This document shows positions 1 to 18,807 of a stretch of DNA of 33,528 bases, piece by piece. The notes under the pieces are model-generated. The model was not told the origin of the DNA, did not search any database, and worked only from the letters and a program-made list of their open reading frames with translations. Position numbers and translations under genes: made by a program. Every line of letters starts with the position of its first letter. The stretch's first letter is position 1. Origin of the DNA: Caryophanales bacterium (GTDB lineage: Bacteria > Bacillota_I > Bacilli_A > RF39 > UBA660); assembly GCA_016288305.1 (NCBI GenBank), contig JAEEYW010000040.1, positions 1 to 33,528 of the forward strand, written 5' to 3'.

Positions 1-1375
1 CATCATCATTGTTATCCTCTACACCTACATATCTGCCAGGTGTTAATACATAATCATTTGACTTAATTTCTTCTATTGTTGCAGAATAACAGAATCCTTT
101 ATTATCTGAATAATCTTCATCATTTTGATAATTATGATAAGTATCTGCAATCTTCTTTATATCACCTGAGCTTAGTTCTCTTAATCTTCTAGTAACCATA
201 GTTCCTAAATTACTCGCATTTATAAATAAAGTATTATTTCTTTGTTTCTTGTTTCTGTTAATAATCCATATAGAACACGGAACTGTTACTGTATAAAATA
301 AATTAGTTGGCATTGCTATAATACAATCTACTAAATCATTTTCTATAAGATTCTTTCTGATTTCTCCCTCTTGTCCTCCAACTGATAATGAACCATTAGC
401 TAGAATACAAGCCATTTTACCATTTTGAGATAATTTGGAAATCATATGTTGTAACCAAGCATAATTTGCATTATTTTTGGGAGCTAAACCATATCTCCAT
501 CTAGAATCGTTCTCTACTTTTTCTCTTTCCCATTCTAAATTAAATGGTGGATTAGCTAATATGAAGTCAGCCTTTAAATCTTTATGTAAGTCTTCAGTAA
601 ATGTATCTGCTGCATACTTACCTAAATCTCCATACATAGAACGAATAGCTAAATTCATTTTAGCAAGTCTCCATGTAGTAGGATTCTTTTCTTGACCGTA
701 TATACCAATGTTATAAACATTTCCTTGATGTTCCTCTACGAACTTCATTGATTGAACAAACATGCCACCTGAACCACATGCTGGATCATATACTTTTCCA
801 TTAAATGGTTCAATACATTCAACCATTGTTCTAACCAAACATGCAGGTGTATAGAATTCTCCACCTTTTTGTAATTCATTCTTTGCAAATTGTCCTAAGA
901 AGTATTCATATATTCTACCTAATAAATCTTTTTCTTTTGCTTCTTTAGTACCTACTTTAATATTAGTAAATAAGTCTAATAGTTCTCCAAGACTAACATT
1001 TCTCATTGTTGGTGAGTTATAGTTTTTAGGTAATACATTCTTTAATGATGTGTTTTCTTTTTCGATTAAAGTTAGAGCATCATCAATTATTTCACCAATA
1101 TTAGAATCTTTAGAATGTTCTACTAAATATTCCCATCTTGCATTCTTCGGAACATAGAATATATTCTCAGCTGTATAACAATCTCGTTCTTCTTCAAGAC
1201 CTGCCCCCTCTTCAACTAGTTCTTTATACTTCTCTTCAAAAGAGTCAGATATATACTTTAAAAATATTAAACCTAATACTATAAATTTATAATCAGCTAC
1301 TGAAACTGCACCTCTCATTTTATCAGCTGCAGCCCATAGTTTATCTTCTAATTTCTTTAGTTCTTGTTCATTCAT
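1..1375 (-). CDS. hsdM: Type I restriction-modification DNA methyltransferase subunit HsdM (3' end outside window)
   Basis: This is the modification subunit of a type I restriction system. With HsdS it methylates adenine N6 in the recognition sequence, and HsdR adds restriction. About 458 codons are present, starting at ATG 1375, and the frame runs open off the left edge; family members are about 500 residues, so only the C-terminus is missing. The N-terminal helical HsdM domain is followed by the SAM-binding motif DPACGSGG near residue 197 and the adenine-methylase motif NPPF near residue 273. A strong AAAGGTGG ribosome site lies in the end of the upstream small gene, whose stop is one base from this start, so the two are translationally coupled. 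hsdS and hsdR would be expected beyond the left edge. Confidence 0.95.
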   Translation of the reverse strand, partial: MNEQELKKLEDKLWAAADKMRGAVSVADYKFIVLGLIFLKYISDSFEEKYKELVEEGAGLEEERDCYTAENIFYVPKNARWEYLVEHSKDSNIGEIIDDALTLIEKENTSLKNVLPKNYNSPTMRNVSLGELLDLFTNIKVGTKEAKEKDLLGRIYEYFLGQFAKNELQKGGEFYTPACLVRTMVECIEPFNGKVYDPACGSGGMFVQSMKFVEEHQGNVYNIGIYGQEKNPTTWRLAKMNLAIRSMYGDLGKYAADTFTEDLHKDLKADFILANPPFNLEWEREKVENDSRWRYGLAPKNNANYAWLQHMISKLSQNGKMACILANGSLSVGGQEGEIRKNLIENDLVDCIIAMPTNLFYTVTVPCSIWIINRNKKQRNNTLFINASNLGTMVTRRLRELSSGDIKKIADTYHNYQNDEDYSDNKGFCYSATIEEIKSNDYVLTPGRYVGVEDNNDD

Positions 1376-1376
1376 A

Positions 1377-1592
1377 TTACTTACCACCTTTTAATTTATA
1401 TATTGCATAAGCAATTAATGCTAACCAAACTCTATTTGCAGAATTATTATTTAATTGTGCAGCTTTATCAAGCATTTCCGTTCCTTTGTGATAGGTTTCC
1501 AATTCTTCAAGTGTTAAATTTTGACTTATTATCCATTGTTTTAACTGTTCAATAGTCATTGATTGAAAATCTATTAAAAAATTATTATCCAT
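1377..1592 (-). CDS. Small hypothetical protein coupled to hsdM
   Basis: A 71-residue protein that I do not recognise. ATG 1592 was chosen because GGGAGGT precedes it at good spacing; an in-frame upstream start at 1619 lacks this. The sequence is mostly helical and rich in Leu, Ile and Gln, with a segment SANRVWLALIAYAIYKLKGG near the C-terminus that could be an amphipathic or membrane-contacting helix. It sits directly upstream of hsdM and its end carries the hsdM ribosome site, so it is the first gene of the restriction-modification operon. Position alone suggests a role linked to the methyltransferase (stoichiometry control or a regulator), but no motif shows this. Confidence 0.7.
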   Translation of the reverse strand: MDNNFLIDFQSMTIEQLKQWIISQNLTLEELETYHKGTEMLDKAAQLNNNSANRVWLALIAYAIYKLKGGK

Positions 1593-1744
1593 AATAGTAC
1601 CTCCCAAGATATCTCTCATATAAAATTATAACATACAATTCGACAAATTTTGATTTTTTGTGACCAATTCGTACCAGAAATTACCAAATTATATCAATAA
1701 TCTTGACTAATTTTTAATTTTAAGTGATTAATACAAGAAATTGT

Positions 1745-2055
1745 ATGATTAGAAAATGTACTGATGAAAATATTTCTGATGAAGAATTAGAAAAAGTTAT
1801 AAATCCTTTTTATGACAATTATCACGAATATATTATTACTTAGTTGTACCTGAAATAATTGCATTTTATATTGCTAGTTCCTATAGTAGGAATGCTACGT
1901 GAGAAGCAACTTTTTATCAACATTATAATTCTATTAAAGATATCTTTAATGTTAGTTATGATGAGGACTATGATAAAGTTAAAGATGAGGTAATTAAATT
2001 ATTAAAAATTAAATATTCTTTAGAAATAATTAATGAAGATCCATTGGATTTTAAA
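1745..2055 (+). pseudogene. Decayed ORF of unknown function
   Basis: Codon use resembles coding DNA but the reading frame is broken. From ATG 1745 the frame gives about 32 residues and stops at TAG 1841. The frame beginning at 1846 then continues with protein-like sequence (VPEIIAFYIASSYSRNAT), is interrupted by a TGA near 1900, and resumes with EATFYQHYNSIKDIFNVSYD and an acidic/lysine-rich tail up to the terminator hairpin. One frameshift plus one nonsense change would explain it. The product is not recognised. It lies next to a recombinase remnant, which fits decay of an acquired segment. Confidence 0.5.
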
Positions 2056-2096
2056 AAAAAGAGTATTAGATTTTATTATTCCAATACTCTTTTTTT
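2055..2096 (+). terminator. Rho-independent terminator, probably bidirectional
   Basis: A 13-bp stem (AAAAAAGAGTATT at 2055-2067 against AATACTCTTTTTT at 2084-2096) encloses a loop of about 16 bases. It has a T run on the plus strand and an A run on the other side, so it could stop transcription both ways. It closes the decayed ORF. Confidence 0.75.
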
Positions 2097-2258
2097 ATTT
2101 CATTTTCCAAAAAACTCACGGAAAATCTATAATTGTGTGAATGTATGTGGGCTGTGGGTGTGGAAATAATTATATTTTTTATCTACCTACCCTCTGGGGG
2201 GAGGTCTATCTATACTCTATAATTTTCTGCAGTTCTTCCTTACTTATATCGCTCCAGA
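2097..2258. other. Non-coding stretch with G-rich patch
   Basis: No gene is visible. Bases 2135-2165 are G/T-rich on the plus strand, and 2190-2212 holds an imperfect inverted motif, CCCTC facing GGGGGGAGG. Both are strikingly unlike the surrounding AT-rich DNA. This may be the non-coding flank of an acquired element; I cannot assign a function. Confidence 0.4.
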
Positions 2259-2471
2259 ATGGCTGATATGGCCGAATTAAAACGTATTAGGATTCATGAC
2301 TTCAGACTTTCATGTGCTTCTCTTTTAATCAACAATGGTGCTAATGTAACTTTAGTTGCAAAATATTTAGGACACACAAAAATCGAGGAGACACTAAATA
2401 CATATTCCCATATGTTTAGCACACCACTCGATTCAGTTGTTTCTGTTATAGATAGCTTAGAAGATGACTAA
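2259..2471 (+). pseudogene. C-terminal fragment of a tyrosine recombinase (phage-type integrase)
   Basis: The 70-residue open frame matches only the last part of the catalytic domain of integrases. It contains IRIHDFR (the HxxR box with its Arg), then ASLLINNGANVTLVAKYLGH (second box His/Trp position) and LNTYSHMF with the nucleophilic Tyr. The normal HDLRHS reads HDFRLS. The N-terminal DNA-binding domains and the first catalytic Arg are missing, and the upstream DNA is not coding in this frame, so the gene is a truncated remnant. Integrases are common next to type I restriction loci, either as phase-variation recombinases for hsdS or as mobile-element integrases; which one this was cannot be told. 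Confidence 0.85.
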
Positions 2472-2478
2472 GCTTTTT

Positions 2479-4476
2479 TTATGACAATTTATCAATAATT
2501 TCATTCAATTTTTCATTTAAAATTTTAAAAGGATACTCACGCATAGGGTCATTAATTTTTTCTTTTTTTAGTTTATCCTCTAATTTGATTTTAAACTCTC
2601 TTATACTTTCTAAATCTGATTCATAATAACCTTTTATATTTGCAAAATCATAGACAGAATCCAAAGAGTACTTAAACAAATATACATCTTTTATTTCTGT
2701 GCTAAATAATAATTCTAATATTTTATTGACATCTAATTCAGAAAAAAATCTTTTGTTAATAATGAAATCATTTTTATTCTTAACAATATAATCATGGAAG
2801 TTTTCGCCCCAATTAGGATTGTTAAAAATATTATCTAGCATACTTTCGTTTTTATTTTTGGTATTTTTTTTCAATACACCTTTAATTATCTCCATATGTT
2901 GATTATAAAACTTGGCTGATTCATCATTTGTAAAAAATGGGTATGCTTCCAGTTGAATATCCTCACCATTTTCAACATTGTTTTTAATACAATCTACTAT
3001 TTCTTCAACTATATTACTTTTAAAGCCCATAGATTCTAAACGCGATAATTGCTTAATTATAGTGTTGTAAAAGGCAGGATTATACTTGTGACTTTCAATA
3101 TTTATTTTAATATCATTCAAATTATTTTCTATATTCTCAGATGAATTAAACCAAAATTCACCGGTTAAATTATTAAACGGATCATCAGCAGATAATTTTT
3201 CACAATTAGAAGATTCAAATTCTTTAATAGTTTTTTCGATATCGCTTTTCTTAATACAATTATATATTAAGTATTCATTTACAAAATCAAACGTCAAATG
3301 CAATTTAGATGAAAAAATTGAATCTTGGTCTTTGCCATATGAAACATAATCATATCGTTTTTCAGATTGAAGTAATGGTAAATTATCACCTTTTTTCATA
3401 GTAATACAACCATTTATTATGCTTGATGAAAGACTACTATAAATAAAGCCATGGTCTATACAGCAATTATCAATAAAATCTTTCGAATAATTATAAATTT
3501 GGTAAAAATTATCAAAATAAAAGTCTAATGTTCTAATATTATTAAATTCATTCGTTATCATTGAATTAATAACACTTGTTTTGGTATTACATAATATCTT
3601 AAAGAAATCATCATCTTTGCTATACTTAAATGCTAAATTGTCATATGCATCATCAAGGACAGGAACAAACTTAAATACCTTACCTATAAGTTTCTCTTTA
3701 ATTATTTTATATTTATTATTATCGTTATATAAATATTTAATTCGATTCTTTATATCCTCAAAATCCACTTTACCTGGCTCTTTTTCACTATATTTATCCG
3801 GTTTTTTATCACAATCATAAAATTCAATACTATTATTTAATACAGACATTACTTTTAATTCAACATTTTCAGTTATCGTTTTGTCTATTTCATCTTCATT
3901 AGCTACAATAATACATTTCATATTTTTGTGTTCTACAAAATCATTTAGAAAGCCAAGAACTTCATCAATTGGAATCCCACATCTTTCTAAATCATCAATT
4001 ATCAAAATAAATTCATCAATTTTTTTGACAATTTTTAGTGCTCCATAATAGTCAATTTTTTTTAAAGATGAAACATTAATATCCAATTTAACTAATCCTA
4101 AATTTAATGTTAATAATCCAATTAGTTTAAATATTAAGTAGAAAATAAATTTTAATATTTTAATTATCCACTTTAACAATGTAACGGGAATAAAGAAGAA
4201 AAACTTAATTATTCCTATTTTATACAAATTGATTATAAATCTAAGAAACGAACTTTTCACATATTTAGATTTTAATAATTCAAAATATATTTTTTCACTC
4301 AGCTTATCTAAGGAATTTACATCATATAAAGAAACGTATAATGCATTTGAATACCTTTTTAAAATATTTTTTTTAATAAAAAATGTTTTGCCAGATCCCC
4401 AAGCACCATCAATCATAATAGCATAATTAATTCTTTTATTACGAATATACTCTTCAATTGCAGATACTAAATCCAT
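2479..4476 (-). CDS. KAP family P-loop NTPase with membrane insertion
   Basis: This is a 665-residue P-loop ATPase. Walker A is GAWGSGKT at residues 24-31. A strongly hydrophobic block follows at about residues 77-129, enough for two membrane helices. Walker B is ILIIDDLER at about 157-165. Insertion of membrane segments between Walker A and B is a hallmark of KAP NTPases (Kidins220/ARMS and F-plasmid PifA, a phage-exclusion protein). The C-terminal 450 residues are helical and charged and not recognised. TATGGAGG precedes ATG 4476. Its promoter is followed by a terminator-like hairpin in the leader. It stands downstream of a helicase/nuclease and a second KAP gene, suggesting a membrane-anchored defence ATPase; that role is inference. 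Confidence 0.85.
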   Translation of the reverse strand: MDLVSAIEEYIRNKRINYAIMIDGAWGSGKTFFIKKNILKRYSNALYVSLYDVNSLDKLSEKIYFELLKSKYVKSSFLRFIINLYKIGIIKFFFFIPVTLLKWIIKILKFIFYLIFKLIGLLTLNLGLVKLDINVSSLKKIDYYGALKIVKKIDEFILIIDDLERCGIPIDEVLGFLNDFVEHKNMKCIIVANEDEIDKTITENVELKVMSVLNNSIEFYDCDKKPDKYSEKEPGKVDFEDIKNRIKYLYNDNNKYKIIKEKLIGKVFKFVPVLDDAYDNLAFKYSKDDDFFKILCNTKTSVINSMITNEFNNIRTLDFYFDNFYQIYNYSKDFIDNCCIDHGFIYSSLSSSIINGCITMKKGDNLPLLQSEKRYDYVSYGKDQDSIFSSKLHLTFDFVNEYLIYNCIKKSDIEKTIKEFESSNCEKLSADDPFNNLTGEFWFNSSENIENNLNDIKINIESHKYNPAFYNTIIKQLSRLESMGFKSNIVEEIVDCIKNNVENGEDIQLEAYPFFTNDESAKFYNQHMEIIKGVLKKNTKNKNESMLDNIFNNPNWGENFHDYIVKNKNDFIINKRFFSELDVNKILELLFSTEIKDVYLFKYSLDSVYDFANIKGYYESDLESIREFKIKLEDKLKKEKINDPMREYPFKILNEKLNEIIDKLS

Positions 4477-4493
4477 ATATTACCTCCATATCA

Positions 4494-4542
4494 AGAAAAA
4501 AATCTATTATGAAAATAGATTTATTATATAAATATTATATCA
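4494..4542 (-). promoter_or_regulatory. Extended -10 promoter with attenuator-like hairpin in the leader
   Basis: On the minus strand an extended -10 (TGATATAAT, with TATAAT at 4539-4534) has no clear -35. The expected transcript start near 4527 is followed at once by a hairpin (8-bp stem, 4515-4522 with 4500-4507) and a run of seven T. Only then come the GGAGG and start codon of the KAP gene. A terminator between promoter and its own gene suggests attenuation or anti-termination. It could instead mark the end of transcripts coming from upstream. Confidence 0.5.
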
Positions 4543-4649
4543 TATATTTGCGTCTTTATATCAGAAGAATATATTTTATTATAAATGTTCTAATCTGCAT
4601 GGACAGTGTTTAATCGCACCTAAATTCTGTTTCATCGTACGCCAAAAAT

Positions 4650-4672
4650 AAAAAAGCCCGTAAATACGGGGC
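4650..4672 (-). terminator. Rho-independent terminator after the helicase gene
   Basis: Read on the minus strand, GCCCCGTA - loop - TACGGGC is followed by TTTTTT. It lies about 75 bases past the helicase stop and is the only GC-rich stem nearby. The remaining bases between 4540 and 4746 show no gene. Confidence 0.8.
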
Positions 4673-4746
4673 AAAATGAGCATAAATTAATAGCATAGGG
4701 GAAGAGAATAAATAAATGGTATTTAAATATCATTCACCATATTAAT

Positions 4747-6888
4747 CTATTGTATATCCTTGCTTTTTGTTAGCAGTTCGTCAACAAATTCACTTCTATT
4801 TTTAGTATTCATATTGTACATAACGAATACATTATTCTTAGTACGCGTCATAGCAACATAGAATACTCTGCGTTCTTCAGCATATTTAATAGATTCTTGA
4901 GGTATTTGTGGTTTAAATAGTTCTAATAACCAATAATAATCTAAATGATCGGTTGGAAATTCCTTAGTCATACCTATAATAATAACTTCATCAAATGTTA
5001 ATCCTTTAGATTTATGTATTGTCATACCATCTAATTTTAAATCATGCACATTTTCAATTCTTATTTTAGTGTCCAAATCATCGATAAAATCAGTATTATA
5101 TTCAAACATTTTATCTATCATAGCATTAGTTCTACCTAAAACAAGTATACTATGTGATGGCCATGTATCATGAATTTTAATAATTAAATCTCTTAATTTA
5201 TTGTACTCAGATGCTTCATCTATTCTGTCACCATCTCTATCATCATATTTAACAAAATGAATTGGTCTATCTAGATGTTTAAATGATATTAAATCTTTGC
5301 TTATTTGATCAGGATTCTCTTTAATAAAACTTCCTGCTATATCAACTAATTCTTGACTATTACGATATGTCCTTTTAATTGATAATATGGTTGGGTAATC
5401 AAAATAATCCGCAAATCTAGTTATATATCCTATGTTAGAACCTCTAAATGAATATATACTTTGCCAATCATCACCTACAGCAAATACTTTAGCTGAAGTT
5501 TTATTCGAAGTATTACGCGCTAAAGAATACTCACCATCAGAAATATCCTGATACTCATCAATGATGATATATTCATAATCAAAATCACCAATAAATTCTT
5601 TATTAGCTAAATATTTATTTGAATAATATAACAAGTCAGAATAATCAAAACCATATGTTGAAGCATTGATAAGTCTATTGGAATAATACTTATAGAATTG
5701 ATCTATATAGGCAAACTGTTTTTTCATTTGCTCTTTCTCATCAGCATTATCACACGCTTCTATATATCTATTTACAATATTTAAATAATCAGCGCGTTGA
5801 ACATTTTCTTTTATTCTATCCACAGCACTATAGAATAAGTTTTTTAATTTATAAATTTCTGTTAATCTTTTAGTATCTAGTAATTGTGTATATATATCAA
5901 TATAGCTTCTATCACGATATATAAATCCCATGTTCTTAAGCTCAAAATCTAATCTTTCTTCTAATGCATCTAAAGAAGTTTTATCAACGCATATAAATTT
6001 ATTATTATGCGCCTTATGCATAGCAATTTTCTTTTCTTTTTCTTTAAGATACTTCTCATCATTCAAGCCAAAATATTCTAAATAAACAGGTACACCAGCT
6101 AAGTTCAATGTGAAATCAGGTTTATACACTTTTCGATCTTCAACTATTCTGTCATATACTTTTTCATACTGATATTCAATACCATGTTTAAATAAGAAAT
6201 TAGCTATTTTAGCCTCAGCGGCTGATTTAACTAATTCACCCTTAATAGATGTAATATATTCATCAGCATTAATCTTTTTATCAATTAGTTCTTCTACAAC
6301 TTTTTCAATTCCTATACTTTTAGCTTCTTCAATTTTATATTCTTTGTATTCATTGAAATAGTGATCATAATCTTCAAATTTATAGTAATTCTTATATAAG
6401 AAACTACCATACCCAAAATGTTTGTTACCAACGGTTTCAGCTGTAAATGTATTCATTAGATCATAGATTTTTCTTCTACGATATAGTTCATTAATATAAT
6501 CATAAAATATCTGTTCACGAATGTTGTAATCAACAATCTGACATTTCTTACCTTCAAATATTTTTCTTACGTATTTATACGCCAAAGAATGGAAAGTAGT
6601 AACATCGGCATTAATATTAAATTCGTCATTTATTAATGTTCTTAACTCTTCAACAGCTTTTTTAGTATAACTGATAACTAATATTTTTGATGGATCAACT
6701 TTTTTAATATCAACTAAATACTTTACCTTACCAACCATTGTAGTTGTCTTACCAGTACCAGCACCAGCTAAAATTAAAACATAATTATCATCTGTCATTA
6801 TTGCCTTAATTTGATCATCATCAAGAGCAATATTAGGATCAATATCACTAAACATATTTTTAAAGTAATCTTTTAATTCCTCATTCAC
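4747..6888 (-). CDS. UvrD/helicase IV-like superfamily 1 helicase with inserted nuclease-like domain
   Basis: A 713-residue SF1A DNA helicase. Motif I is GAGTGKT (residues 42-48), motif II DEYQD, motif III GDDWQSIYSFRG, motif IV RTYRNSQE, motif V THKSKG-like IHKSKGLTFDE, and motif VI VAMTRTK. Between motifs Ia and II, about residues 218-295, is a segment with E225, KPDF (PD at 257-258) and YLEYFG (E271). It resembles the PD-(D/E)xK-type insert seen in some helicase IV-like proteins; the usual Lys is not obvious. The start is GTG 6888, eight bases after AGG, in preference to later ATGs. The gene has its own promoter and terminator. UvrD-like helicases paired with ATPases or nucleases occur in phage defence (GajB of Gabija), so a defence role is plausible here; general repair is the alternative. 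Confidence 0.9.
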   Translation of the reverse strand: MNEELKDYFKNMFSDIDPNIALDDDQIKAIMTDDNYVLILAGAGTGKTTTMVGKVKYLVDIKKVDPSKILVISYTKKAVEELRTLINDEFNINADVTTFHSLAYKYVRKIFEGKKCQIVDYNIREQIFYDYINELYRRRKIYDLMNTFTAETVGNKHFGYGSFLYKNYYKFEDYDHYFNEYKEYKIEEAKSIGIEKVVEELIDKKINADEYITSIKGELVKSAAEAKIANFLFKHGIEYQYEKVYDRIVEDRKVYKPDFTLNLAGVPVYLEYFGLNDEKYLKEKEKKIAMHKAHNNKFICVDKTSLDALEERLDFELKNMGFIYRDRSYIDIYTQLLDTKRLTEIYKLKNLFYSAVDRIKENVQRADYLNIVNRYIEACDNADEKEQMKKQFAYIDQFYKYYSNRLINASTYGFDYSDLLYYSNKYLANKEFIGDFDYEYIIIDEYQDISDGEYSLARNTSNKTSAKVFAVGDDWQSIYSFRGSNIGYITRFADYFDYPTILSIKRTYRNSQELVDIAGSFIKENPDQISKDLISFKHLDRPIHFVKYDDRDGDRIDEASEYNKLRDLIIKIHDTWPSHSILVLGRTNAMIDKMFEYNTDFIDDLDTKIRIENVHDLKLDGMTIHKSKGLTFDEVIIIGMTKEFPTDHLDYYWLLELFKPQIPQESIKYAEERRVFYVAMTRTKNNVFVMYNMNTKNRSEFVDELLTKSKDIQ

Positions 6889-6910
6889 ACTATCAACCTA
6901 CCATAATCAC

Positions 6911-6940
6911 ATTATAACATGGTAAACATAAAAATGTAAA
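6911..6940 (-). promoter_or_regulatory. Promoter of the helicase gene
   Basis: On the minus strand TTTACA (6940-6935) and TATAAT (6916-6911) are 18 bases apart, with the GTG start 22 bases further on. This makes the helicase a separate transcription unit from the KAP operon that ends just upstream. Confidence 0.7.
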
Positions 6941-6952
6941 TCAATGATTGCT

Positions 6953-6986
6953 ATTACTAATTTAATAATGTTATCAAATTAGTAAT
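6953..6986. other. 11-bp stem-loop at the 3' end of the second KAP gene
   Basis: ATTACTAATTT (6953-6963) pairs perfectly with AAATTAGTAAT (6976-6986) around a 12-base loop. It covers the last codons of the gene and has no T run, so it is not a classical terminator. It may stabilise the mRNA end or be a weak terminator. Confidence 0.45.
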
Positions 6987-8270
6987 ATATGTAGCATCAA
7001 TCGTGAGTTGTGGAATAAATACATTCATGCGTTCCAAAATCCCTCTTTCCTGCTCAAAATTTTTTATACCAGGAACATCAATAAATTCCTTATATTTGAC
7101 ATCAATATAGGTTTTACTGCCATACCTTTTTAGCGCTCCTATACAACTTTCAATATTACAATCAGTAAATTTATCTAATTTAAAAGATAAAATATCAAGA
7201 TATTTTTTTCTATCAATGTCACCGTTTTGCAATATTGCTTGTCTGAAATTATCGAAGTTGCCATCAATAATGCTATTAAAAAACATCAAATCAATATTTT
7301 TTAAAGTTAACATAAATAACACGAACACACTTTGACTTTTTGTCCATGGCGTAGCATTACAATATCTTTCGTATTTTTGTAAAAATTCAGTAAATATTTT
7401 ATGGCCATCGCGAATTGATACATCCAATGTTTTGAAAATATAATCAACTGAAGGTATAATATCAGGTATTTTATTAACTGACGAACAATCCAGTATTTGG
7501 CTAAATGTAATCCTATTTAAATTCATTTTGTAGTCGAAAAATTTGCTGAAGTAAACATCACTATTCATCCCTTGACCATATATCGTCTTAACAGATTCTT
7601 GTAATTGTTTCTCATCCAACAACAATATTATGATTAAATTATTAATATCTAAAAAATACTTCATAATTTCAAGCGTGCCAATAGCAAATGTAGGCTTGCA
7701 TCTATCAAGTTCATCTATTATCAAAATCAAGCTTTTTTCAGATGCTTTAGTGGTAAGTTGTTCTTTTATTTTTTCTCGCAATTCATTAATTTTTTTGAAT
7801 TCTTCATACGCTACATTATTATTATTAAGTTCATTATTTATGCCATCACATACTTCTTTAAGCTTATCAAATTTATCTCCAAATTTCAGTTTAATTATTG
7901 CATCAAGGGCAGTATACATATATCTGAATATTTGTTTCCCAATTTGATTACATGCGACATTGGCAAGTCTATCAATATCAATATCAGTATTTAGTTTATC
8001 ATTCAAATACGAAAAAAACGGAATATATGGATTATCGTAAAAGTCGTATTCAAAAGCGTCATACGTAATGACATTATACTTCTCTTTAAGTTCCTCATCG
8101 TCGCATATATCCTTTGCAAATCTTGTTTTGCCAGAACCCCATGTTCCATTTATTAAAATTGATAATCCGTTTTCACTATTTTCTTGATAATATTGCCTAT
8201 TTGCTATTAATTCCTTAAGCGTTCTGATTTCATCAAGTCTTTCAACATGGTTCCTATTATACCTATACAT
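6957..8270 (-). CDS. KAP family P-loop NTPase, soluble type
   Basis: A 437-residue ATPase with Walker A GTWGSGKT (residues 42-49) and Walker B LILIIDELDRCKP (about 181-193). The DExDRC signature is followed by a helical region ending in FDYKMNLNR, typical of KAP P-loop domains. Unlike the KAP protein at 2479-4476, the segment between Walker A and B is charged and helical with no convincing membrane helix. It is the last gene of an operon starting with the AbiEi-like gene, with only 14 bases after the preceding small gene. KAP ATPases occur in phage exclusion and defence (PifA; RdrA of RADAR is KAP-like). I infer a defence ATPase whose partners are the small upstream proteins or the neighbouring helicase. 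Confidence 0.85.
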   Translation of the reverse strand: MYRYNRNHVERLDEIRTLKELIANRQYYQENSENGLSILINGTWGSGKTRFAKDICDDEELKEKYNVITYDAFEYDFYDNPYIPFFSYLNDKLNTDIDIDRLANVACNQIGKQIFRYMYTALDAIIKLKFGDKFDKLKEVCDGINNELNNNNVAYEEFKKINELREKIKEQLTTKASEKSLILIIDELDRCKPTFAIGTLEIMKYFLDINNLIIILLLDEKQLQESVKTIYGQGMNSDVYFSKFFDYKMNLNRITFSQILDCSSVNKIPDIIPSVDYIFKTLDVSIRDGHKIFTEFLQKYERYCNATPWTKSQSVFVLFMLTLKNIDLMFFNSIIDGNFDNFRQAILQNGDIDRKKYLDILSFKLDKFTDCNIESCIGALKRYGSKTYIDVKYKEFIDVPGIKNFEQERGILERMNVFIPQLTIDATYITNLITLLN

Positions 8271-8284
8271 ATGATTTCACATCC

Positions 8285-8503
8285 TTAATCTTTCAAATTA
8301 TTAAATTCATCTATTGCATCTTCGAACTCAGCGTGAGTACATAATTTGCCATTACATAGGATCCTTACATTATTATCATACCCTTTATACAATTCTCGAT
8401 GCCAGTTCTTTATATCATCTAAAACTGATAGCATTTTATGTCTAGAAGCCACTATTTCCATTTCTCTAGCACTTTCAGTTTCAAATACATATTTATCATT
8501 CAT
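8285..8503 (-). CDS. Small phage-like hypothetical protein
   Basis: A 72-residue charged helical protein whose central part, SVLDDIKNWHRELYKGYDN, resembles small early-region proteins I associate with Firmicutes phages; no function is known to me. GGGGG lies nine bases before ATG 8503, and the gene overlaps the preceding zinc-ribbon gene by eight bases, so the operon is tightly coupled. The Asp/Glu-rich character might suit a nucleic-acid mimic or adaptor, but this is speculation. Confidence 0.65.
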   Translation of the reverse strand: MNDKYVFETESAREMEIVASRHKMLSVLDDIKNWHRELYKGYDNNVRILCNGKLCTHAEFEDAIDEFNNLKD

Positions 8504-8696
8504 CTTTTTTATCCCCCTTTTCTACCTCTGATAATTCTTCATAATCTTCTTCATTACCTAGTCGTTTTAAATAATCTTTCCCACCATCAACTGCAACTGC
8601 CCCACATTTACAAAACTTAAAATCATGCCTATAAGTTGATTCAATTATATCTCCACATTTTTTACATTTAATTTTGTTAACTATTATCTTATTCAT
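8496..8696 (-). CDS. Short zinc-ribbon protein (DUF7695-like)
   Basis: A 66-residue protein with CKKCGD at residues 10-15 and FCKCGAVAVDGGKDYLKR in the middle. Two cysteine pairs form a probable zinc ribbon, followed by a Gly-Gly-Lys-Asp-Tyr-Leu-Arg-type motif and an acidic tail. From memory this pattern matches a short family often found in phages and mobile regions of Firmicutes (DUF7695); I could not search to confirm. It overlaps the AbiEi-like gene by eight bases, and its GGAGTGG ribosome site lies inside that gene. It is likely a nucleic-acid-binding or adaptor component of the operon. Confidence 0.75.
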   Translation of the reverse strand: MNKIIVNKIKCKKCGDIIESTYRHDFKFCKCGAVAVDGGKDYLKRLGNEEDYEELSEVEKGDKKDE

Positions 8697-9315
8697 ATAA
8701 CCACTCCAATAAATCCATCACTTCTTTTTTTATACCCATTTTATCTGCGTACTTAGAAAGTTTAACTAAATCTTTATCCTTTCTCTTAATATATTCTCTC
8801 AAGCTATATTTAACATGTTCTCTATCCATTCTATTTTTAGACCTTATAATATCACATATGCATCTTTCAATATCATATACTCTAACAACATTACCAAATG
8901 GTGTTTTAACTTCCGTTAATCCTAGTTCATATATATCATCAGAAACATAAAACACCTTATGATTTTTCAATTTAATACTATTATAATTTTTCTTAACAGT
9001 TACATCATATTTACTATCAGGAGCTTTAATTGATAATCCATGAAAATATAATGCAGTCATATGCGAATATATAATACCTGGTAAATTCAAATTAAGTACA
9101 TAATAAGAATCTGGAAATTTATTAACATCAAGATATATTCCATTATCAAGTTTTTCTATAATATTTCTATCTACCATAATATTAAGATACATTCTATGAA
9201 TACCCAATTCAGTTAATTGTTTGGATGTAATATATCCATTATTAGCTTTCATTAACTCCTGTATTATCTCAATATTGCTTTGATCTTTAAACTCTTTTAT
9301 AGTCATCTTTTCCAT
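8689..9315 (-). CDS. AbiEi-like winged-helix antitoxin/regulator
   Basis: A 208-residue protein. Its N-terminal winged-helix part (about residues 1-60, with ITSKQLTELGI and IEKLDNGIYL) and following domain (IIYSHMTALYFHGLS, then VRVYDIERCICDIIR) match AbiEi, the antitoxin and autorepressor of type IV AbiE systems. The partner nucleotidyltransferase AbiEii normally follows but is absent; the next genes encode a zinc ribbon, a small protein and a KAP NTPase. ATG 9315 is preferred because GGAG lies at proper spacing; the upstream ATG at 9321 abuts GGAG. It is probably the transcriptional regulator of this operon, acting on the inverted repeat upstream. Confidence 0.8.
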   Translation of the reverse strand: MEKMTIKEFKDQSNIEIIQELMKANNGYITSKQLTELGIHRMYLNIMVDRNIIEKLDNGIYLDVNKFPDSYYVLNLNLPGIIYSHMTALYFHGLSIKAPDSKYDVTVKKNYNSIKLKNHKVFYVSDDIYELGLTEVKTPFGNVVRVYDIERCICDIIRSKNRMDREHVKYSLREYIKRKDKDLVKLSKYADKMGIKKEVMDLLEWLYE

Positions 9316-9344
9316 ATACATTCTCCTTTGACTTATGTACCTTT

Positions 9345-9373
9345 ATTTTATGTCATATCAGTACAAATGTCAA
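9345..9373 (-). promoter_or_regulatory. Consensus sigma-A promoter of the AbiEi-KAP operon
   Basis: On the minus strand TTGACA (9373-9368) and TAAAAT (9350-9345) are separated by exactly 17 bases. The start codon lies about 30 bases past the -10. Such a strong promoter suggests that repression is needed to keep expression low. Confidence 0.85.
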
Positions 9374-9385
9374 TTACAAAATTAA

Positions 9386-9409
9386 AATACTAATTTATAT
9401 ATTAGTATT
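9386..9409. promoter_or_regulatory. Inverted repeat upstream of the operon promoter (putative operator)
   Basis: AATACTAAT (9386-9394) pairs with ATTAGTATT (9401-9409) around six bases, starting 13 bases upstream of the -35. AbiEi proteins bind inverted repeats near their own promoters, so autoregulation is a reasonable inference. A weak terminator for the preceding unit is less likely, as that unit already has one. Confidence 0.5.
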
Positions 9410-9437
9410 CTTTGCATACCATAAACCTTCATGGCAC

Positions 9438-9465
9438 AAAAAGTATCCAGTAAAAACTGGATACT
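9438..9465 (-). terminator. Rho-independent terminator after the aminotransferase-GNAT gene
   Basis: Ten perfect base pairs (AGTATCCAGT / ACTGGATACT, 9442-9465) with a TTTT loop and a T run on the minus strand begin at the stop codon. It separates the NAD-related genes from the defence-like operon. Confidence 0.9.
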
Positions 9466-11521
9466 AATAGCTTCCATCTTTATCTATTTCTTCTAAGTCA
9501 AAGTAGAAACCATATTCTTCATATGTTTCATCACCAATCTTAGCCATTTTAGTTTCAGATTTAATACCGCCTAAACTTTCATAAAATTTAATGGCATTTA
9601 TATTATCTTTTAGGCACCAAACAATCATATTTCTTTTACCCAAAGAAAATAATTCTTTAGCCGTTTCTAAAAATAAAGCTTTACCTATACCTTTATGTTG
9701 ATACTCTTTTTTAATATATAAACTAACTAATTCAGAATCATATTTAAATGAATCATCCTTAGGATCTAAACAAGAATAGCCTAATACTTCATTACCTTTT
9801 ACAGCAACTAATACTTTATCTTTATATTCATCAAAACTTCTACAATATCTTTCTGTTTGTTCTTTAACATCCATGCCTTTTAAATATGTCGAAGCAATAA
9901 TACCTTCATATGTATCACGATATCCATCAATTTTAATTCTTGCCATTTGTTCTTGGTCTTCAAGCTTATTAAATCTAATAATATAATCTTCTTTATCCGT
10001 TAATAATTCTAAAGCCCTACCCATCTTATATAGAGCATTAATAATTAATTCTTTATCTAAAGCAAAATTAACTCTTCCAACCAATTCATCTTCATATGGC
10101 CAAGATATTGATTGACCTACTAAAAATCTAATTCTTCCCATCTTATAAAAGAACTTAAGTAAATCTCTTTCTGTACTAATAATTCTACCTTTGTATTTCA
10201 TTCCTTTAATTTTAGTAAAATCTAAAATAGCAAAGAACCCTGATTCAGTTTCTAAATTAGTAGGGAAAGTTACATAAGGTAATCCTTTTAAAGCTATGGA
10301 TGCATTTTCTTTAAGTACATTATTTACATCACTAATAATTTTATCTTTATCGGTATCAACTGTATCAATACCATCTACTAAAGCTTTTAATAAATTTAAG
10401 CGATATTTATATTCATTTCTTAAATTAGTAAAATATTCTTGATATACAATACTTCTTTCTTTAGAAGCATTGAATCCTCCAGCTAAAGCATATCCTGTTA
10501 TGGAAGGACTTGAATCTATTTCTTGGAATATTCTATTTATGACTTCTCTAATAATAAGTTCATCTGCTACAACAAAACCAGCTCTTAGTGAGGCAAGTCC
10601 ATATGCCTTAGATAAGCCAAATAAAGAAATAGTATTTCTAAACATACCAGGAATAGTGGCAATAGGTTTAGCGATATTATTTTCATCGAAAGTAATATCT
10701 CTATAAACCATATCATCAATAATGAATACACCTCTTTTATTACATACTTCACCTATTTTAGTCAATAACGCAACATCTTTTTCACCCATAACTTTACCAG
10801 TTGGATTATTAGGATTAGCATTTAAAAAAGCTACTACTCTAGGAACATATCCTTTTCTTCTGTTATATACCTTTTGTAAAGATTCATTAATTTCATCTAT
10901 TTTAGCAGCTAACTTATCAGGATTAACTAAGAAATTATCTTCTTTTTCTAAAGGAAGAATATCTACTTCCGCACCACATCTTTCAGCTCTAATCGTAAAT
11001 AAACCATAATTTGGTCCTGTTACTAATAATACATCACCTGGTCTAGATATAATATTAATAATAATATTAAATATCATGGATGTAGAAGGCATAAATGTTA
11101 TATTGTGAACAGATAATCCTTTATCATCAACATCATTATATGGGTAAGGTCGATCATTATTAAAACCTATGCTTTCTACATAATCAAGTAATTCTTTTCT
11201 GATAGAATCAGCACCCTCTGTATATGGATAAGAATATAAATAATCGCTACCTAGCCATTCTTTCATCTTATCTATACATAAAGGAAAGGGCTTATAACGT
11301 AAAGGATTACCACTACCCAAATCAATATCTTTGACAGTCGTTATATTTTCATCTCTAACTTCATAACCATAGAAGTTAATAGCATCAGCAATTTTCTCTA
11401 CAGTAGGATTAAACTTTTCCATATCAAGCCTATTGCCCACTAAAGGAAGACCAAATCTTCTTTCTGACAATTCAGGATTATCACGCAAAAACCTATCTAT
11501 AGCACTTGATTTAATTAACAT
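9464..11521 (-). CDS. Class I/II aminotransferase fused to a GNAT acetyltransferase
   Basis: A 685-residue fusion. The first 510 or so residues are a fold-type I PLP aminotransferase: NANPNNPTGK (about 235-245), IIDDMVYR (about 267-274), LFGLSKAYG with the PLP Lys at about 305, followed by SLRAGF. The last 170 residues are a GNAT N-acetyltransferase with the acetyl-CoA loop QHKGIGKAL (about 608-616) and a C-terminal INAIKFYESLGG. ATG 11521 is used because AGGTG precedes it; an in-frame GTG lies nine bases upstream. The gene follows nrtR but after a terminator and with its own -10, so it is only loosely attached to the NAD operon. The fusion suggests transamination followed by N-acetylation of the same or a related amine; the substrate is unknown. 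Confidence 0.85.
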   Translation of the reverse strand: MLIKSSAIDRFLRDNPELSERRFGLPLVGNRLDMEKFNPTVEKIADAINFYGYEVRDENITTVKDIDLGSGNPLRYKPFPLCIDKMKEWLGSDYLYSYPYTEGADSIRKELLDYVESIGFNNDRPYPYNDVDDKGLSVHNITFMPSTSMIFNIIINIISRPGDVLLVTGPNYGLFTIRAERCGAEVDILPLEKEDNFLVNPDKLAAKIDEINESLQKVYNRRKGYVPRVVAFLNANPNNPTGKVMGEKDVALLTKIGEVCNKRGVFIIDDMVYRDITFDENNIAKPIATIPGMFRNTISLFGLSKAYGLASLRAGFVVADELIIREVINRIFQEIDSSPSITGYALAGGFNASKERSIVYQEYFTNLRNEYKYRLNLLKALVDGIDTVDTDKDKIISDVNNVLKENASIALKGLPYVTFPTNLETESGFFAILDFTKIKGMKYKGRIISTERDLLKFFYKMGRIRFLVGQSISWPYEDELVGRVNFALDKELIINALYKMGRALELLTDKEDYIIRFNKLEDQEQMARIKIDGYRDTYEGIIASTYLKGMDVKEQTERYCRSFDEYKDKVLVAVKGNEVLGYSCLDPKDDSFKYDSELVSLYIKKEYQHKGIGKALFLETAKELFSLGKRNMIVWCLKDNINAIKFYESLGGIKSETKMAKIGDETYEEYGFYFDLEEIDKDGSY

Positions 11522-11538
11522 ACATATCACCTAAAACA

Positions 11539-11570
11539 ATTATATCACAAAAAAAGAACTATTCGTTCTT
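11539..11570 (-). promoter_or_regulatory. Terminator of nrtR followed by extended -10 promoter for the fusion gene
   Basis: On the minus strand a small hairpin (AAGAAC/GTTCTT, 11570-11554) starts in the nrtR stop codon and ends in a T run. It is followed directly by TGATATAAT (TATAAT at 11544-11539), an extended -10 without a good -35. The leader to the fusion gene would be only about ten bases. Confidence 0.55.
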
Positions 11571-12377
11571 ATACTTAAATAAAGCAGATGGGCGATGTCC
11601 GCCATCACTTCTTATCTTATCCGTTTTTACAACCTTATCCGCTATAATTCTTCTAAAAGCAGGATCTAATAATTTCTTGCCGAGTATTACCTCATATACT
11701 TGTTGAAGCTCACCTAAAGTAAAATAAGGAGGCATAACATTAAATACAACATCCGTATAATTAGTTTTATTTCTGATCCTTTCCATACCAGATAAAATGA
11801 CAATATCATGATCAAAAGCTAAAGTATTAGTTTTAGAAACAAAGGCATATCTATCCGTTGTTTTTTCTTTTAAATGTTTTTCAACTTCTATTTTTAAAGT
11901 TTCTTTGCCATTATCAAGTACTAATGTTACATTATTACCTTCTTCAAACATTGTAACATCAAACCAAGATGCATTAGCATTAATAGGTTGCCCTAAAAGA
12001 TTTTTATCAATCAAAGCCACAAAAGAACAAGATACAACTCTAAGACGCGGATCTCTATTTATAGCATCGAATGTATATAATTGTTCTAAATAGATATCGG
12101 AAAGATTAGTCTCAGTCTTTAAAACACGTTTAGCACATTCTTCTAAAGTTTCAGATTTAGGATTTAAAAATCCTCCTGGTAGGCACCATCTATCTTTATA
12201 AGGATAATCATCTCTTTTTACTAAAAGGATAGACATAATCTTACCATTATTTCTTCGATAATCCTTTTTTTCTATATCTGATACACTTATTAAACATATA
12301 TCCGATGTCATAGATAATTTATCAAACATAGATGAATCATAATTTTTTAAGAATTCTTCTTCAGAGTTATATTTCAT
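11559..12377 (-). CDS. nrtR: NrtR-type Nudix-related transcriptional regulator of NAD metabolism
   Basis: A 272-residue protein with an N-terminal Nudix fold (WCLPGGFLNPK near residue 65-75) and a C-terminal winged helix (FTLGELQQVYEVILG, then DPAFRR and GGHRPSALFKYK), the architecture of NrtR. NrtR represses NAD genes and is released by ADP-ribose or related ligands in studied bacteria. The Nudix box departs from the consensus: the R-E and E-E glutamates read RVLKTET, so hydrolysis is probably lost and the domain senses ligand. It lies near the end of the NAD operon it presumably controls, via palindromes upstream of pncA. AAGAGGTG precedes the ATG. Confidence 0.9.
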   Translation of the reverse strand: MKYNSEEEFLKNYDSSMFDKLSMTSDICLISVSDIEKKDYRRNNGKIMSILLVKRDDYPYKDRWCLPGGFLNPKSETLEECAKRVLKTETNLSDIYLEQLYTFDAINRDPRLRVVSCSFVALIDKNLLGQPINANASWFDVTMFEEGNNVTLVLDNGKETLKIEVEKHLKEKTTDRYAFVSKTNTLAFDHDIVILSGMERIRNKTNYTDVVFNVMPPYFTLGELQQVYEVILGKKLLDPAFRRIIADKVVKTDKIRSDGGHRPSALFKYKNE

Positions 12378-12399: not shown

Positions 12400-12858
12400 T
12401 TATAAAAAACTAATTAATTTATCAAGGATTTTATTTAAAATATACTCTTTATTTTCACTTCTTGTATCTTTTGTAACCGTTATTTCTAAATCATTATATA
12501 TTCCATTATAATAGATAGAAACATATACTTTATTATCTTCACCTTGAGGATTATTTTTATCTTTTCTTTTTAGTTTACCTGTTATACCTATACCAATATC
12601 ACTACCAGCATATTTTTTTATATTGTATGCCATTTCACGTGCCACTTCCATACTATACACAGAATACTTATTAATTGTTTCTTCATTCACGCCCAATTTA
12701 ATTTTAAAAGCATTGCAATATGTTACGGCTGAAAACTCTAATACATCAGAAGCGCCTTCGATACTTGTAATAGCATTAGCAATAGCTCCACCTGTACATG
12801 ATTCCATAGTAGATATTCTTAAATGTAATTTTCTTAATCGGCTGACAATGTCTTGCAT
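12400..12858 (-). CDS. pncC: Nicotinamide-nucleotide amidase (CinA C-terminal family)
   Basis: A 152-residue stand-alone CinA C-terminal domain, full length for PncC. It contains the conserved STMESCTGG (about 17-25), a GASDVLEFSAVTY segment and GIGITGKL. PncC deamidates NMN to nicotinate mononucleotide, feeding NadD and NadE. It overlaps the preceding ADP-ribosylglycohydrolase gene by 25 bases. The operon context makes NMN deamidase far more likely than a competence role. Confidence 0.9.
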   Translation of the reverse strand: MQDIVSRLRKLHLRISTMESCTGGAIANAITSIEGASDVLEFSAVTYCNAFKIKLGVNEETINKYSVYSMEVAREMAYNIKKYAGSDIGIGITGKLKRKDKNNPQGEDNKVYVSIYYNGIYNDLEITVTKDTRSENKEYILNKILDKLISFL

Positions 12859-13679
12859 TTGACACCACCATATCGTTTATCACTATATATCAAATCTATT
12901 TGCTCTTTCGTTAAATATTTTTTAACTTCATTTTTTAATTCTTCAGGAATACCATAATAACTTTCTGCTATACTACCAGCAATAGCAGCAATAGTATCTG
13001 TATCCCCTCCAATAGAAATAGCCTTTCTAATTGTATCTTCAAAATCATTAGCAACCATAAATACATATATAGCTTGTGGTATAGTAATCGATGCCTTACT
13101 TGAAAATTTATTATTCCTTTGTAAATCCTCTAAATCGTAACTTAAATCATAATAATTATCTTTAATATATTTTATGACATCTTCTTTAGACTCACCATGA
13201 CGTAATTTGAAAATAGCTGAAGCTACAGCTTCACTAGCTTTAATAGCATCTTCATGATTATGTGATGGAATAGTTGCTTTTTTACTTTCTTTGATAACAT
13301 CTTCTAAGTTATCAAATAAAAATCCAACAGGACTTATACGCATTGCACATCCATTACCATAGCTATTACCCTCTTTTTCACCTAAAAGCCAAGATACAAA
13401 GCCCTTACCAAATCTACTTCTACCATATTTATCTTCACCCAAATTTATTTCAGCTAAACCATACTTTTTTAAATATTCCTCATATTTAAAATTGCCATTT
13501 ACAATAGCATCATATATAGCACAAGTTAAAACTGTATCATCAGTATATGAAGAATCACTAGTAAATAGTGGTATATCTTTATTTAAAATTTTGATTCTTT
13601 CTTCATAAGTTCTATGATTTTTGATTTCAAGTACTTCATAGTAAGAACCTGCGATATCTCCTATTATTGCTCCTAACAT
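12834..13679 (-). CDS. ADP-ribosylglycohydrolase family protein
   Basis: A 281-residue DraG/ARH-type hydrolase. Metal ligands are recognisable in SYTDDTVL (about 44-51), GNGCAMRISPVG and the C-terminal GGDTDTIAAIAGSIAESYYG. The family removes ADP-ribose from proteins or cleaves ADP-ribosyl compounds using Mg2+. AGGAGG precedes ATG 13679. Located between nadD and pncC, it likely recovers ADP-ribose; the Nudix hydrolase in the same operon could then cleave it to AMP and ribose phosphate. The true substrate cannot be read from sequence. Confidence 0.92.
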   Translation of the reverse strand: MLGAIIGDIAGSYYEVLEIKNHRTYEERIKILNKDIPLFTSDSSYTDDTVLTCAIYDAIVNGNFKYEEYLKKYGLAEINLGEDKYGRSRFGKGFVSWLLGEKEGNSYGNGCAMRISPVGFLFDNLEDVIKESKKATIPSHNHEDAIKASEAVASAIFKLRHGESKEDVIKYIKDNYYDLSYDLEDLQRNNKFSSKASITIPQAIYVFMVANDFEDTIRKAISIGGDTDTIAAIAGSIAESYYGIPEELKNEVKKYLTKEQIDLIYSDKRYGGVKCKTLSAD

Positions 13680-13688
13680 ATATACCTC

Positions 13689-14228
13689 CTAATATAAATT
13701 ATTATCTTTGATATATTTAAACACTCTTGGATCCAAATATTTACTATCTAAATCGTTTCTAATCATTGTAGATGATATATTTAAAAATTTATAATCTCTA
13801 CATACAATAAAATTAGAAGTATGATAATCTTTAATATACTCATCAATATTGATATTATCCCTATTTACGACAATGATATTATATTTTAATAACTCTTGAT
13901 AATTTTTCCATTTATGAAAATTAACAATATTATCAGCACCCATAATAAGATATAAATCATCAATATAATCTTTTTTCAAACTACACATCAAATCACAAGT
14001 AAATTCATAATTATTATTTTTATCATCAACAACAATACTGTCGTTCTCAAAAAATTTCAGCATATTAATACGATGTTTTATATCAACTAAGTTACGTTTA
14101 TCCCAATATCCAATAGTTGGCACAATTAAAACCTTATCAACATAATTTTCTTTAAGTAAATAATTTACTAAATCAATATGCCCTTTATGTACAGGATTAA
14201 AACTACCTATGTATACTCCTAATTTCAT
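13689..14228 (-). CDS. nadD: Nicotinate-nucleotide adenylyltransferase
   Basis: This 179-residue enzyme transfers AMP from ATP to nicotinate mononucleotide, making deamido-NAD. It shows GSFNPVHKGHIDL (nucleotidyltransferase HxGH motif, about residues 8-20), MGADN near residue 97 and SSTMIR near the C-terminus. It is seven bases after nadE in the operon. Somewhat short but complete for NadD, with good AGGGA ribosome site. Confidence 0.93.
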   Translation of the reverse strand: MKLGVYIGSFNPVHKGHIDLVNYLLKENYVDKVLIVPTIGYWDKRNLVDIKHRINMLKFFENDSIVVDDKNNNYEFTCDLMCSLKKDYIDDLYLIMGADNIVNFHKWKNYQELLKYNIIVVNRDNINIDEYIKDYHTSNFIVCRDYKFLNISSTMIRNDLDSKYLDPRVFKYIKDNNLY

Positions 14229-14235
14229 ATTATCC

Positions 14236-14991
14236 CTACTTACTTTTTACTTCACCATATTTATAAGATGGCATTAATTTCATCTTAAATTCATTAATTT
14301 TATGTTTATGATCAATCAAATTTTTAATATCTTTATCTTCACAAATGCCAGTACGTAAATATTTATCCAAAGTAGCATATGTAAAACCTAAATTATCTTC
14401 ATCTGTTTTACCACATAAACCATCACTAGGCGTTTTATAAACTAAATCTTTAGGTAAACCTAATTCCATGCCTAACAACTTTACCTCAGCAACAGTCAAA
14501 TTAGCTAAAGGCGCTACATCACCAGCAGAATCACCATAACGTGTGGAATAACCTACCCAATCTTCAGATAAATTACATGTATTTATAACGCGGCCATTGA
14601 TAGTCTGACTAACAGCATATAAAGTAGCCATACGAATTCTAGGTGGTAAATTAATCAAAGTTTGTTCACTTAATTCACAACCTAAACTTTCTTTTAATAA
14701 CGCTATTTCTTTCTCAACGACATCTTTGATATTAATTGTAATATTATCAATACCAAGATGTTGGCACACTCTAATAGAATCACTAATATCATTTTGAACA
14801 CCATTAGGCATTAATACACCAAATACATTTTCTTTACCTAAAACTTCAACACATAAGGCTGCTGTTACAGTTGAATCTTTACCACCAGATATACCAATAA
14901 CAGCTTTACAACCTTTACCATTTTCTTCAAACCATTCTTTTAACCATTTAACCAATTCTTCTTTTACTTTTTTAGCATCAAAATCATTCAT
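14236..14991 (-). CDS. nadE: Ammonia-dependent NAD synthetase
   Basis: A 251-residue synthetase that converts deamido-NAD to NAD using ammonia. The P-loop is SGGKDST (about 34-40). Downstream are NLSEDWVGYSTRYGDSAGDVAPLANL and TPSDGLCGKTDE-type segments, all typical of NadE. No glutaminase domain is present, so ammonia is the nitrogen donor. It overlaps pnuC by eight bases. Confidence 0.96.
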   Translation of the reverse strand: MNDFDAKKVKEELVKWLKEWFEENGKGCKAVIGISGGKDSTVTAALCVEVLGKENVFGVLMPNGVQNDISDSIRVCQHLGIDNITINIKDVVEKEIALLKESLGCELSEQTLINLPPRIRMATLYAVSQTINGRVINTCNLSEDWVGYSTRYGDSAGDVAPLANLTVAEVKLLGMELGLPKDLVYKTPSDGLCGKTDEDNLGFTYATLDKYLRTGICEDKDIKNLIDHKHKINEFKMKLMPSYKYGEVKSK

Positions 14992-15709
14992 TAGTCTTAT
15001 TCCTTTCTTTATTCAACTTAACCCAATTTCTTAAACCAATAATTGCCATTATTAAATAAATTGATTTTTTTGTTAAATAAACTGTATCGAAATGTACGAT
15101 ATACATTATAACAGCAATTATATCTGTAATTATCCACCATACATATTGTTCAGCATATCGATATAATTCTAAAACAGTAGCAACTAAACCAATAGCTACA
15201 GTTAAAGCATCTAGAAAAGCAACTGTACCACCAACACTTACAAGTATTTCATATGTTACAAATGTTGTAATAGCAACTAAACCAATACTTAATATACGTT
15301 GTTTCATTGTTAATTGTTTTGCTAAAGTTTTTTCGGGTATTTTTTTATCTCTATGTCTAGCCCAATTAATCCATGATGCTATATTCATAGGTAAATAGAA
15401 TAATACCTCTAAACAAAATGTTCCATATATCTTATAATACAATAAATATATAGCATATACAATAGTATTAACTAAACCAAAGATAAAATTTGATACATTA
15501 GCTTTAGCACAAAAGAAGATACATATAATACCACATATAGCACTTATAAAATTAACTATTGTTAACCATAATGGGTTACTAGTACTAGCTGGGTTAACAA
15601 ATGCGTTATACACAGCAATACCAGCTATAAATACCATTATTATAATCATTATTATTTCATACCATTTTAATTCTTTAAAACTATTTTTTAAGTTCTTTAA
15701 ACCATCCAT
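14984..15709 (-). CDS. pnuC: PnuC-family nicotinamide riboside (vitamin B3) transporter
   Basis: A 241-residue integral membrane protein with about seven hydrophobic helices. It has the PnuC signature region FYLPMNIASWINWARHR near the middle and YAEQYVWWIITDI near the C-terminus. PnuC proteins carry nicotinamide riboside or related vitamins by facilitated diffusion, driven by intracellular phosphorylation. No ribosylnicotinamide kinase is found in this operon, so the trapping step must be encoded elsewhere or the substrate differs. Overlaps its neighbours on both sides. Confidence 0.93.
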   Translation of the reverse strand: MDGLKNLKNSFKELKWYEIIMIIIMVFIAGIAVYNAFVNPASTSNPLWLTIVNFISAICGIICIFFCAKANVSNFIFGLVNTIVYAIYLLYYKIYGTFCLEVLFYLPMNIASWINWARHRDKKIPEKTLAKQLTMKQRILSIGLVAITTFVTYEILVSVGGTVAFLDALTVAIGLVATVLELYRYAEQYVWWIITDIIAVIMYIVHFDTVYLTKKSIYLIMAIIGLRNWVKLNKERNKTNE

Positions 15710-18209: not shown

Positions 18210-18210
18210 A

Positions 18211-18792: not shown

Positions 18793-18807
18793 ATTTTCCT
18801 CCTTTTT

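Follow-up and report, generated by a model that had tools for sequence, protein, structure and literature searches.

We report that four closely packed genes in a 33,528-nucleotide stretch of a Caryophanales genome (the window) are very probably a deletion-scarred remnant of a defence island and not a purpose-built four-gene system. In the ancestor, AbiEi, DUF7695 and a conserved 104-aa gene (S104) would have been followed by an AbiL-type pair, the AAA ATPase AbiLi and the TOPRIM-like effector RloB, the order that loci L141 and L146 still have. S104 and the rloB end each hold one copy of an imperfect 17-nt direct repeat, and a deletion of about 2.1 kb between these copies would have taken AbiLi, the promoter-like region upstream of it and nearly all of RloB, joining S104 codons 1–61 in frame to the last 11 rloB codons as a 72-aa ORF. 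This would have left a single-gene KAP NTPase (PDC-S20) whose start is 14 nt past the scar and which the AbiEi transcript probably includes (a KAP promoter of its own is also possible), with AbiEi predicted from homology to bind the promoter as a weakened repressor.

Gene organization and promoter region

The four ORFs, found where the initial annotation had placed them and all on the minus strand, are packed as tightly as it had described for a single operon. An intact AbiEi-family protein of 210 aa (8689–9321) overlaps by 8 nt an intact DUF7695 zinc ribbon of 66 aa (8496–8696), which in turn overlaps the 72-aa ORF (8285–8503) by another 8 nt. The KAP P-loop NTPase of 437 aa (6957–8270) starts 14 nt past the stop codon of the 72-aa ORF, and an AAGGA motif overlaps that stop. 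Family searches bore out the names given to three of the products. AbiEi matched its PADLOC model at 1.5e-61, with Pfam AbiEi_4 slightly below cut-off and solved relatives in 6y8q (1.5e-32) and 9hlo/AbiGi (about 1e-32); the zinc ribbon matched PF24749 at 1.6e-29; and the third product matched Pfam KAP_NTPase at 7.2e-34 and the PADLOC candidate model PDC-S20 at 8.4e-50 over residues 5–341 of 437. The 72-aa ORF matched no database family in these searches.

The promoter with an inverted repeat, also claimed initially, is present. A sigma-70-type promoter, TTGACA-N17-TAAAAT, with 11/12 consensus matches lies at 9373–9345 on the minus strand, and an AT-rich inverted repeat, AATACTAAT...ATTAGTATT, which was read off the sequence, occupies 9386–9409 and is present in the window's clade. 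Between the upstream gene (9464–11530) and the AbiEi block sits a terminator-like hairpin of the intrinsic type (9465–9442, minus strand; 10-bp stem, four GC pairs, T tail). Together, hairpin and promoter suggest that the AbiEi block is a transcription unit of its own. The inverted repeat lies at the left edge of the block common to the sister loci; it may serve as a replacement site or as a terminator, or it may mark where a cassette ends.

The 72-aa ORF and the deletion junction

Codons 1–61 of the 72-aa ORF correspond to the 5' part of S104, whose full-length relatives have 104–107 aa. At the other end, positions 8321–8285 (minus strand) are identical, stop codon included, to the final 37 nt of the rloB genes of L141 and L146 (100%, E 3e-11 in a search of the retrieved loci), and these 37 nt are all that remains of the RloB effector in the window. 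In the alignment, S104-like sequence turns into RloB sequence within an imperfect direct repeat (GAAGCAAGAGATGAATT in S104, GATGCAATAGATGAATT in rloB), the copies of which are 2104 bp apart in L141; the junction, at 8304–8321 on the minus strand, matches both. The two copies are in one reading frame, and the product is S104(1–61) followed by the RloB tail AIDEFNNLKD. The RloB part comprises the last 11 residues of RloB, and other RloB proteins have similar C-terminal ends (e.g. ...ILDAIDEFNKI). Because an S104 start and an exact rloB end are joined in frame inside a repeat, the 72-aa protein is best read as a deletion product.

Homology to the sister loci L141–L146 begins at 9412–9413, where the inverted repeat has its outer edge, and ends within the small ORF at 8304, with DNA identities of 91.5% (L141), 90.2% (L145), 88.0% (L146) and 87.0% (L144). 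Past the rloB stop, the window has no homology to either L141 or L146, and the KAP gene may therefore have been acquired separately. The direct parent of the deletion is inferred from L141 and L146, since we found no relative with an undeleted module and a KAP gene in the equivalent place. The retained S104 codons 1–61 have low dN/dS values of 0.06–0.15, with no strong sign of decay; in the values against L141 (0.147 here, and likewise those given below for AbiEi and DUF7695), divergence before and after the deletion is inseparable. L145 has decayed independently: its S104 is cut short by an early stop codon, and the short rest of the contig has no AbiLi. Another rloB 3'-end remnant occurs in a different genome (L416, G234), where 24 codons, 92% identical, are left and the rest of the gene is gone.

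The genome is a draft in 73 contigs, and the junction is known from assembled sequence, not reads, which raises the question of an assembly chimera. Here, however, the parental sequences share just the imperfect 17-nt repeat, and exact matches at the crossover are short; such a shared stretch is too short for the usual k-mer join, and the fusion is in frame. We consider a chimera highly improbable.

The small protein had been called phage-like. Neither the 72-aa ORF nor full-length S104 has a match among phage records, S104 has none in IMG/VR, and we accordingly rejected the idea that the small ORF derives from a phage. The AbiEi query likewise had no match in IMG/VR, and the AbiEi/S104 unit gives no sign of viral origin. 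The structure model of S104 is poor (pTM 0.43), making a fold search on it meaningless. In two further loci (L102, L103), an AbiEi–AbiEii pair is followed by a 107-aa S104 relative; S104 thus also accompanies complete AbiE pairs.

Gene order in related genomes

We queried 288 same-order genomes with the four genes one by one and mapped about 60 longer stretches; a scan of GTDB genomes added 80 DUF7695 loci. Nowhere in these two sets did the four genes occur together again. Besides the window, 11 database loci have the AbiEi–DUF7695 pair with its 8-nt overlap, and the tails behind it are of three or more kinds. The pair is followed by S104, AbiLi and RloB in L141, L144 and L146; by S104, an AbiLi-like ATPase and a 264-aa gene without assigned family in L189; by AAA_14–DUF4143 (PDC-S01) in L142, L143 and L147; by a Bro-N protein (PDC-S13) in L193, L194 and L199; and by the decayed tail in L145. 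None of L141–L147, L189, L193, L194 and L199 has a KAP gene beside the pair.

These data bear on the proposal of the initial annotation that the AbiEii toxin had been replaced by three other proteins in one defence module, with AbiEi as autorepressor. In a genuine module of this kind, a KAP effector would be modulated by DUF7695 together with the 72-aa protein. The tight overlaps and single good promoter agree with such a module, as do the intact AbiEi, DUF7695 and KAP genes, the intact Walker motifs and the standing of KAP as a PADLOC defence candidate. Against it, the arrangement was found nowhere else in the sets searched, the very outcome that the initial annotation had named as refuting it; its third gene is the S104–RloB fusion scar, and the other S104-bearing AbiEi–DUF7695 loci have an AAA ATPase and a partner gene, not KAP; elsewhere among the sister loci other genes take that place. 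We therefore hold a genuine four-gene module to be very unlikely. What stands of the defence reading is an AbiEi head within a defence island.

Comparison of the sister loci indicates that heads and tails have differing histories, tails having been swapped between near-identical heads. Between L144 and L146, identity is 95.6% in the head against 46.8% amino acid identity for AbiLi; between L141 and L146, it is 91.4% in the head and 94.6% in AbiLi DNA; and between L189 and L141, S104 DNA is 92% identical against 80% for the head. Sequence comparison shows the scar and the lost genes as well as the swapped tails. Since promoter-like sequences (consensus matches only) precede AbiLi and DUF4143, the AbiEi–DUF7695 head may be a separate unit and not the first part of one operon. 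As judged from gene order, AbiEi–DUF7695 without AbiEii is a portable unit that stands beside AbiL/RloB, AAA_14–DUF4143 or Bro-N genes.

By homology, DUF7695 would be a small putative zinc-binding accessory; its dN/dS against L141 is 0.037. Its overlap with AbiEi, kept in the sister loci, and the recurrence of the pair before different tails could mean that AbiEi–DUF7695 is the functional unit, an AbiE-like pair with DUF7695 in the place of AbiEii and the downstream genes as passengers. The promoter-like sequences of the AbiL and DUF4143 tails fit this idea, and both genes are open where the tail has decayed, in L145 and in the window. However, DUF7695 is often found without AbiEi, beside AbiL–RloB or Bro-N genes and in viral contigs, and so is no dedicated partner, and nothing indicates toxicity. 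We regard an AbiE-like pair as rather unlikely.

In viral contigs (L221–L300) DUF7695 is common amid small, tightly packed genes. Upstream of AbiLi–RloB, DUF7695 without AbiEi was seen in L105, L106, L112, L172, L174, L185, L190 and L192, some of which represent one genome counted twice. A 71-aa gene on the opposite strand, with a weak DUF3892 match (tested in L106), lies between DUF7695 and AbiLi–RloB in these loci. This AbiEi-less arrangement is a second, separate association.

AbiEi, its putative operator and the absence of AbiEii

The observation that AbiEi lacks its usual AbiEii toxin was confirmed: none is present in the operon, and a PF08843 search of the genome (assembly about 95% complete) returned none, ruling out AbiEii supplied in trans. 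AbiEi relatives occur in 129 of the 288 same-order genomes, and in most of the close ones the next gene is AbiEii, which was recognised in one representative by Pfam PF08843 and in the others by similarity to that one. In the AbiEi tree, the window belongs to a fully supported eight-member clade (100/100), within which DUF4143 and AbiL tails are interleaved. Because this whole clade has no AbiEii beside AbiEi, the loss of AbiEii appears to be older than the deletion; the alternative that the toxin was merely lost here does not hold. The dN/dS of AbiEi against L141 is 0.095.

In Streptococcus agalactiae, the AbiEi operator is an inverted repeat in the promoter (PMC3985639, PMC7319586), and AbiEii-linked loci have a promoter inverted repeat as this operator predicts. 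In the window, the AbiEi-type operator (9328–9373, minus strand) has an intact left arm, TTGACATTTGTACTGA, a spacer of 14 nt and a degenerate right arm. With 11/16 matches in the correct 14-nt register (at least 11 by chance, about 0.02), it falls within the range of the window's clade (9–11/16), whereas AbiEii-linked loci reach 13–16/16 in the identical register. AbiEi binding may persist here, probably more weakly, and autorepression is probably weakened because one operator arm is degenerate in the clade. The suggestion that AbiEi is an autorepressor is weakened by this degeneracy.

The KAP NTPase

The Walker A and Walker B motifs of the KAP protein are intact, and no clear transmembrane segment was found (best 19-residue hydropathy 1.62). 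In the structure model the P-loop domain is confident and residues 363–437 are unreliable. A fold search gave partial likeness to ORC/Cdc6 and RdrA at TM-scores of 0.30–0.40. PifA, QatA and RADAR RdrA share the KAP/AAA+ NTPase domain with the window KAP, and RdrA chains are among its best fold matches, but these proteins have about 600–850 aa against 437 and the TM-scores are low. With PifA (full length about 720 aa), the NTPase domain alone matches (1.2e-11, residues 30–248). No RdrB or Qat partner was recognised beside KAP, and there was no deaminase among the surrounding proteins scanned. The PDC-S20 model expects a KAP P-loop NTPase of about 450 aa, as here; the KAP genes of the mapped relatives lie outside AbiEi operons, whereas the window KAP stands operon-like behind the scar. 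No functional test of PDC-S20 was found in the literature searched.

KAP matches occur in 12 of the 288 same-order genomes, the window's included (10 without two marginal short matches), and among these it adjoins AbiEi, DUF7695 or the small ORF in the window alone. A contig search with a single sequence, which reaches close kin alone, returned no KAP relatives, and these were therefore taken from the whole-genome search. No KAP gene was found near RloB in 30 RloB-match loci with flanks of up to 1.5 kb, ruling out a conserved RloB–KAP pair within these flanks. KAP is thus most likely an independent candidate defence gene that by chance lay behind rloB or arrived later, and homology suggests an ATP-driven effector or sensor working without the other three genes.

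A fresh hybrid, compatible with the deletion, would have an accidental origin and real regulation: KAP captured under the AbiEi promoter and now regulated by AbiEi. The short distance from scar stop to KAP start, with AAGGA across the stop, favours such a capture, as do the unit delimited by hairpin and promoter and the intact AbiEi and DUF7695. The degenerate right operator arm and the other gene contexts of KAP in relatives (L121, L122) count against it. We see AbiEi-regulated capture as a serious possibility, if short of the probable outcome.

Genomic neighbourhood

Positions 2–8270 of the window form a defence island, with HsdM (type I restriction-modification) at the contig edge. Outside the module, its genes include a second, different KAP NTPase (PDC-S49; 2479–4476, minus strand) and a UvrD/helicase IV-like gene that has a promoter-like site of its own (4747–6888, minus strand). 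The latter has GajB-like matches, and its best relatives are 34–39% identical. A tyrosine recombinase fragment at 2259–2471 on the plus strand (Pfam Phage_integrase 1.5e-10, C-terminal part only) may be what remains of a mobile element since lost; no plasmid match was found. Among 60 genomes, a single relative matches most of the length of the gene immediately upstream of the operon. Further upstream, a Nudix-winged-helix (NrtR-like) regulator (11559–12377) lies just beyond a compact NAD-salvage cluster (12400–18819) with NAPRTase, an NMN transporter, NAD synthase, two nucleotidylyltransferase-like genes, isochorismatase, CinA and an ADP-ribosylglycohydrolase.

Discussion

AbiE is a type IV toxin–antitoxin system of AbiEi and AbiEii (Dy et al. 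2014, PMC3985639). Like it, the window has an AbiEi protein first in a tight operon and a putative inverted-repeat operator over the promoter; unlike it, the window has no AbiEii in operon or genome, its right operator arm is degenerate, and DUF7695 follows AbiEi. AbiL/RloB-type pairs consist of an AAA_21 ATPase and RloB, which is related to TOPRIM_OLD (PMC10440598). Sister loci have an intact pair behind AbiEi–DUF7695–S104, and the AAA_21 gene present in L141, L144 and L146 is absent from the window operon, which has lost nearly all of RloB too and keeps the last 11 rloB codons. A distant AbiLi homologue (33%) exists elsewhere in the window's genome. WYL-domain (BrxR-type) regulators stand beside diverse defence systems (PMC9122601), a comparable case of one regulator family adjoining many systems, but they are another protein family, whereas the window type consists of AbiEi heads with DUF7695.

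A further idea is that AbiEi–DUF7695, in many cases joined by S104, would be a portable unit complete in itself: a toxin-less AbiEi and a zinc ribbon would control or guard downstream defence genes, KAP having replaced the lost pair in the window. We put this forward as a speculative and doubtful reading. DUF7695 is unmentioned in the literature searched, and its association with AbiEi is likewise undescribed there.

One deletion can create a convincing 'new operon', for which overlaps and a common promoter are insufficient proof, and a deletion-born fusion ORF can pass for a small partner protein. The part of the locus worth following is the AbiEi–DUF7695 association, in which AbiEii-less heads change tails in defence islands, mostly of uncultured Bacilli. 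It raises the question of toxin-less antitoxins as island regulators.
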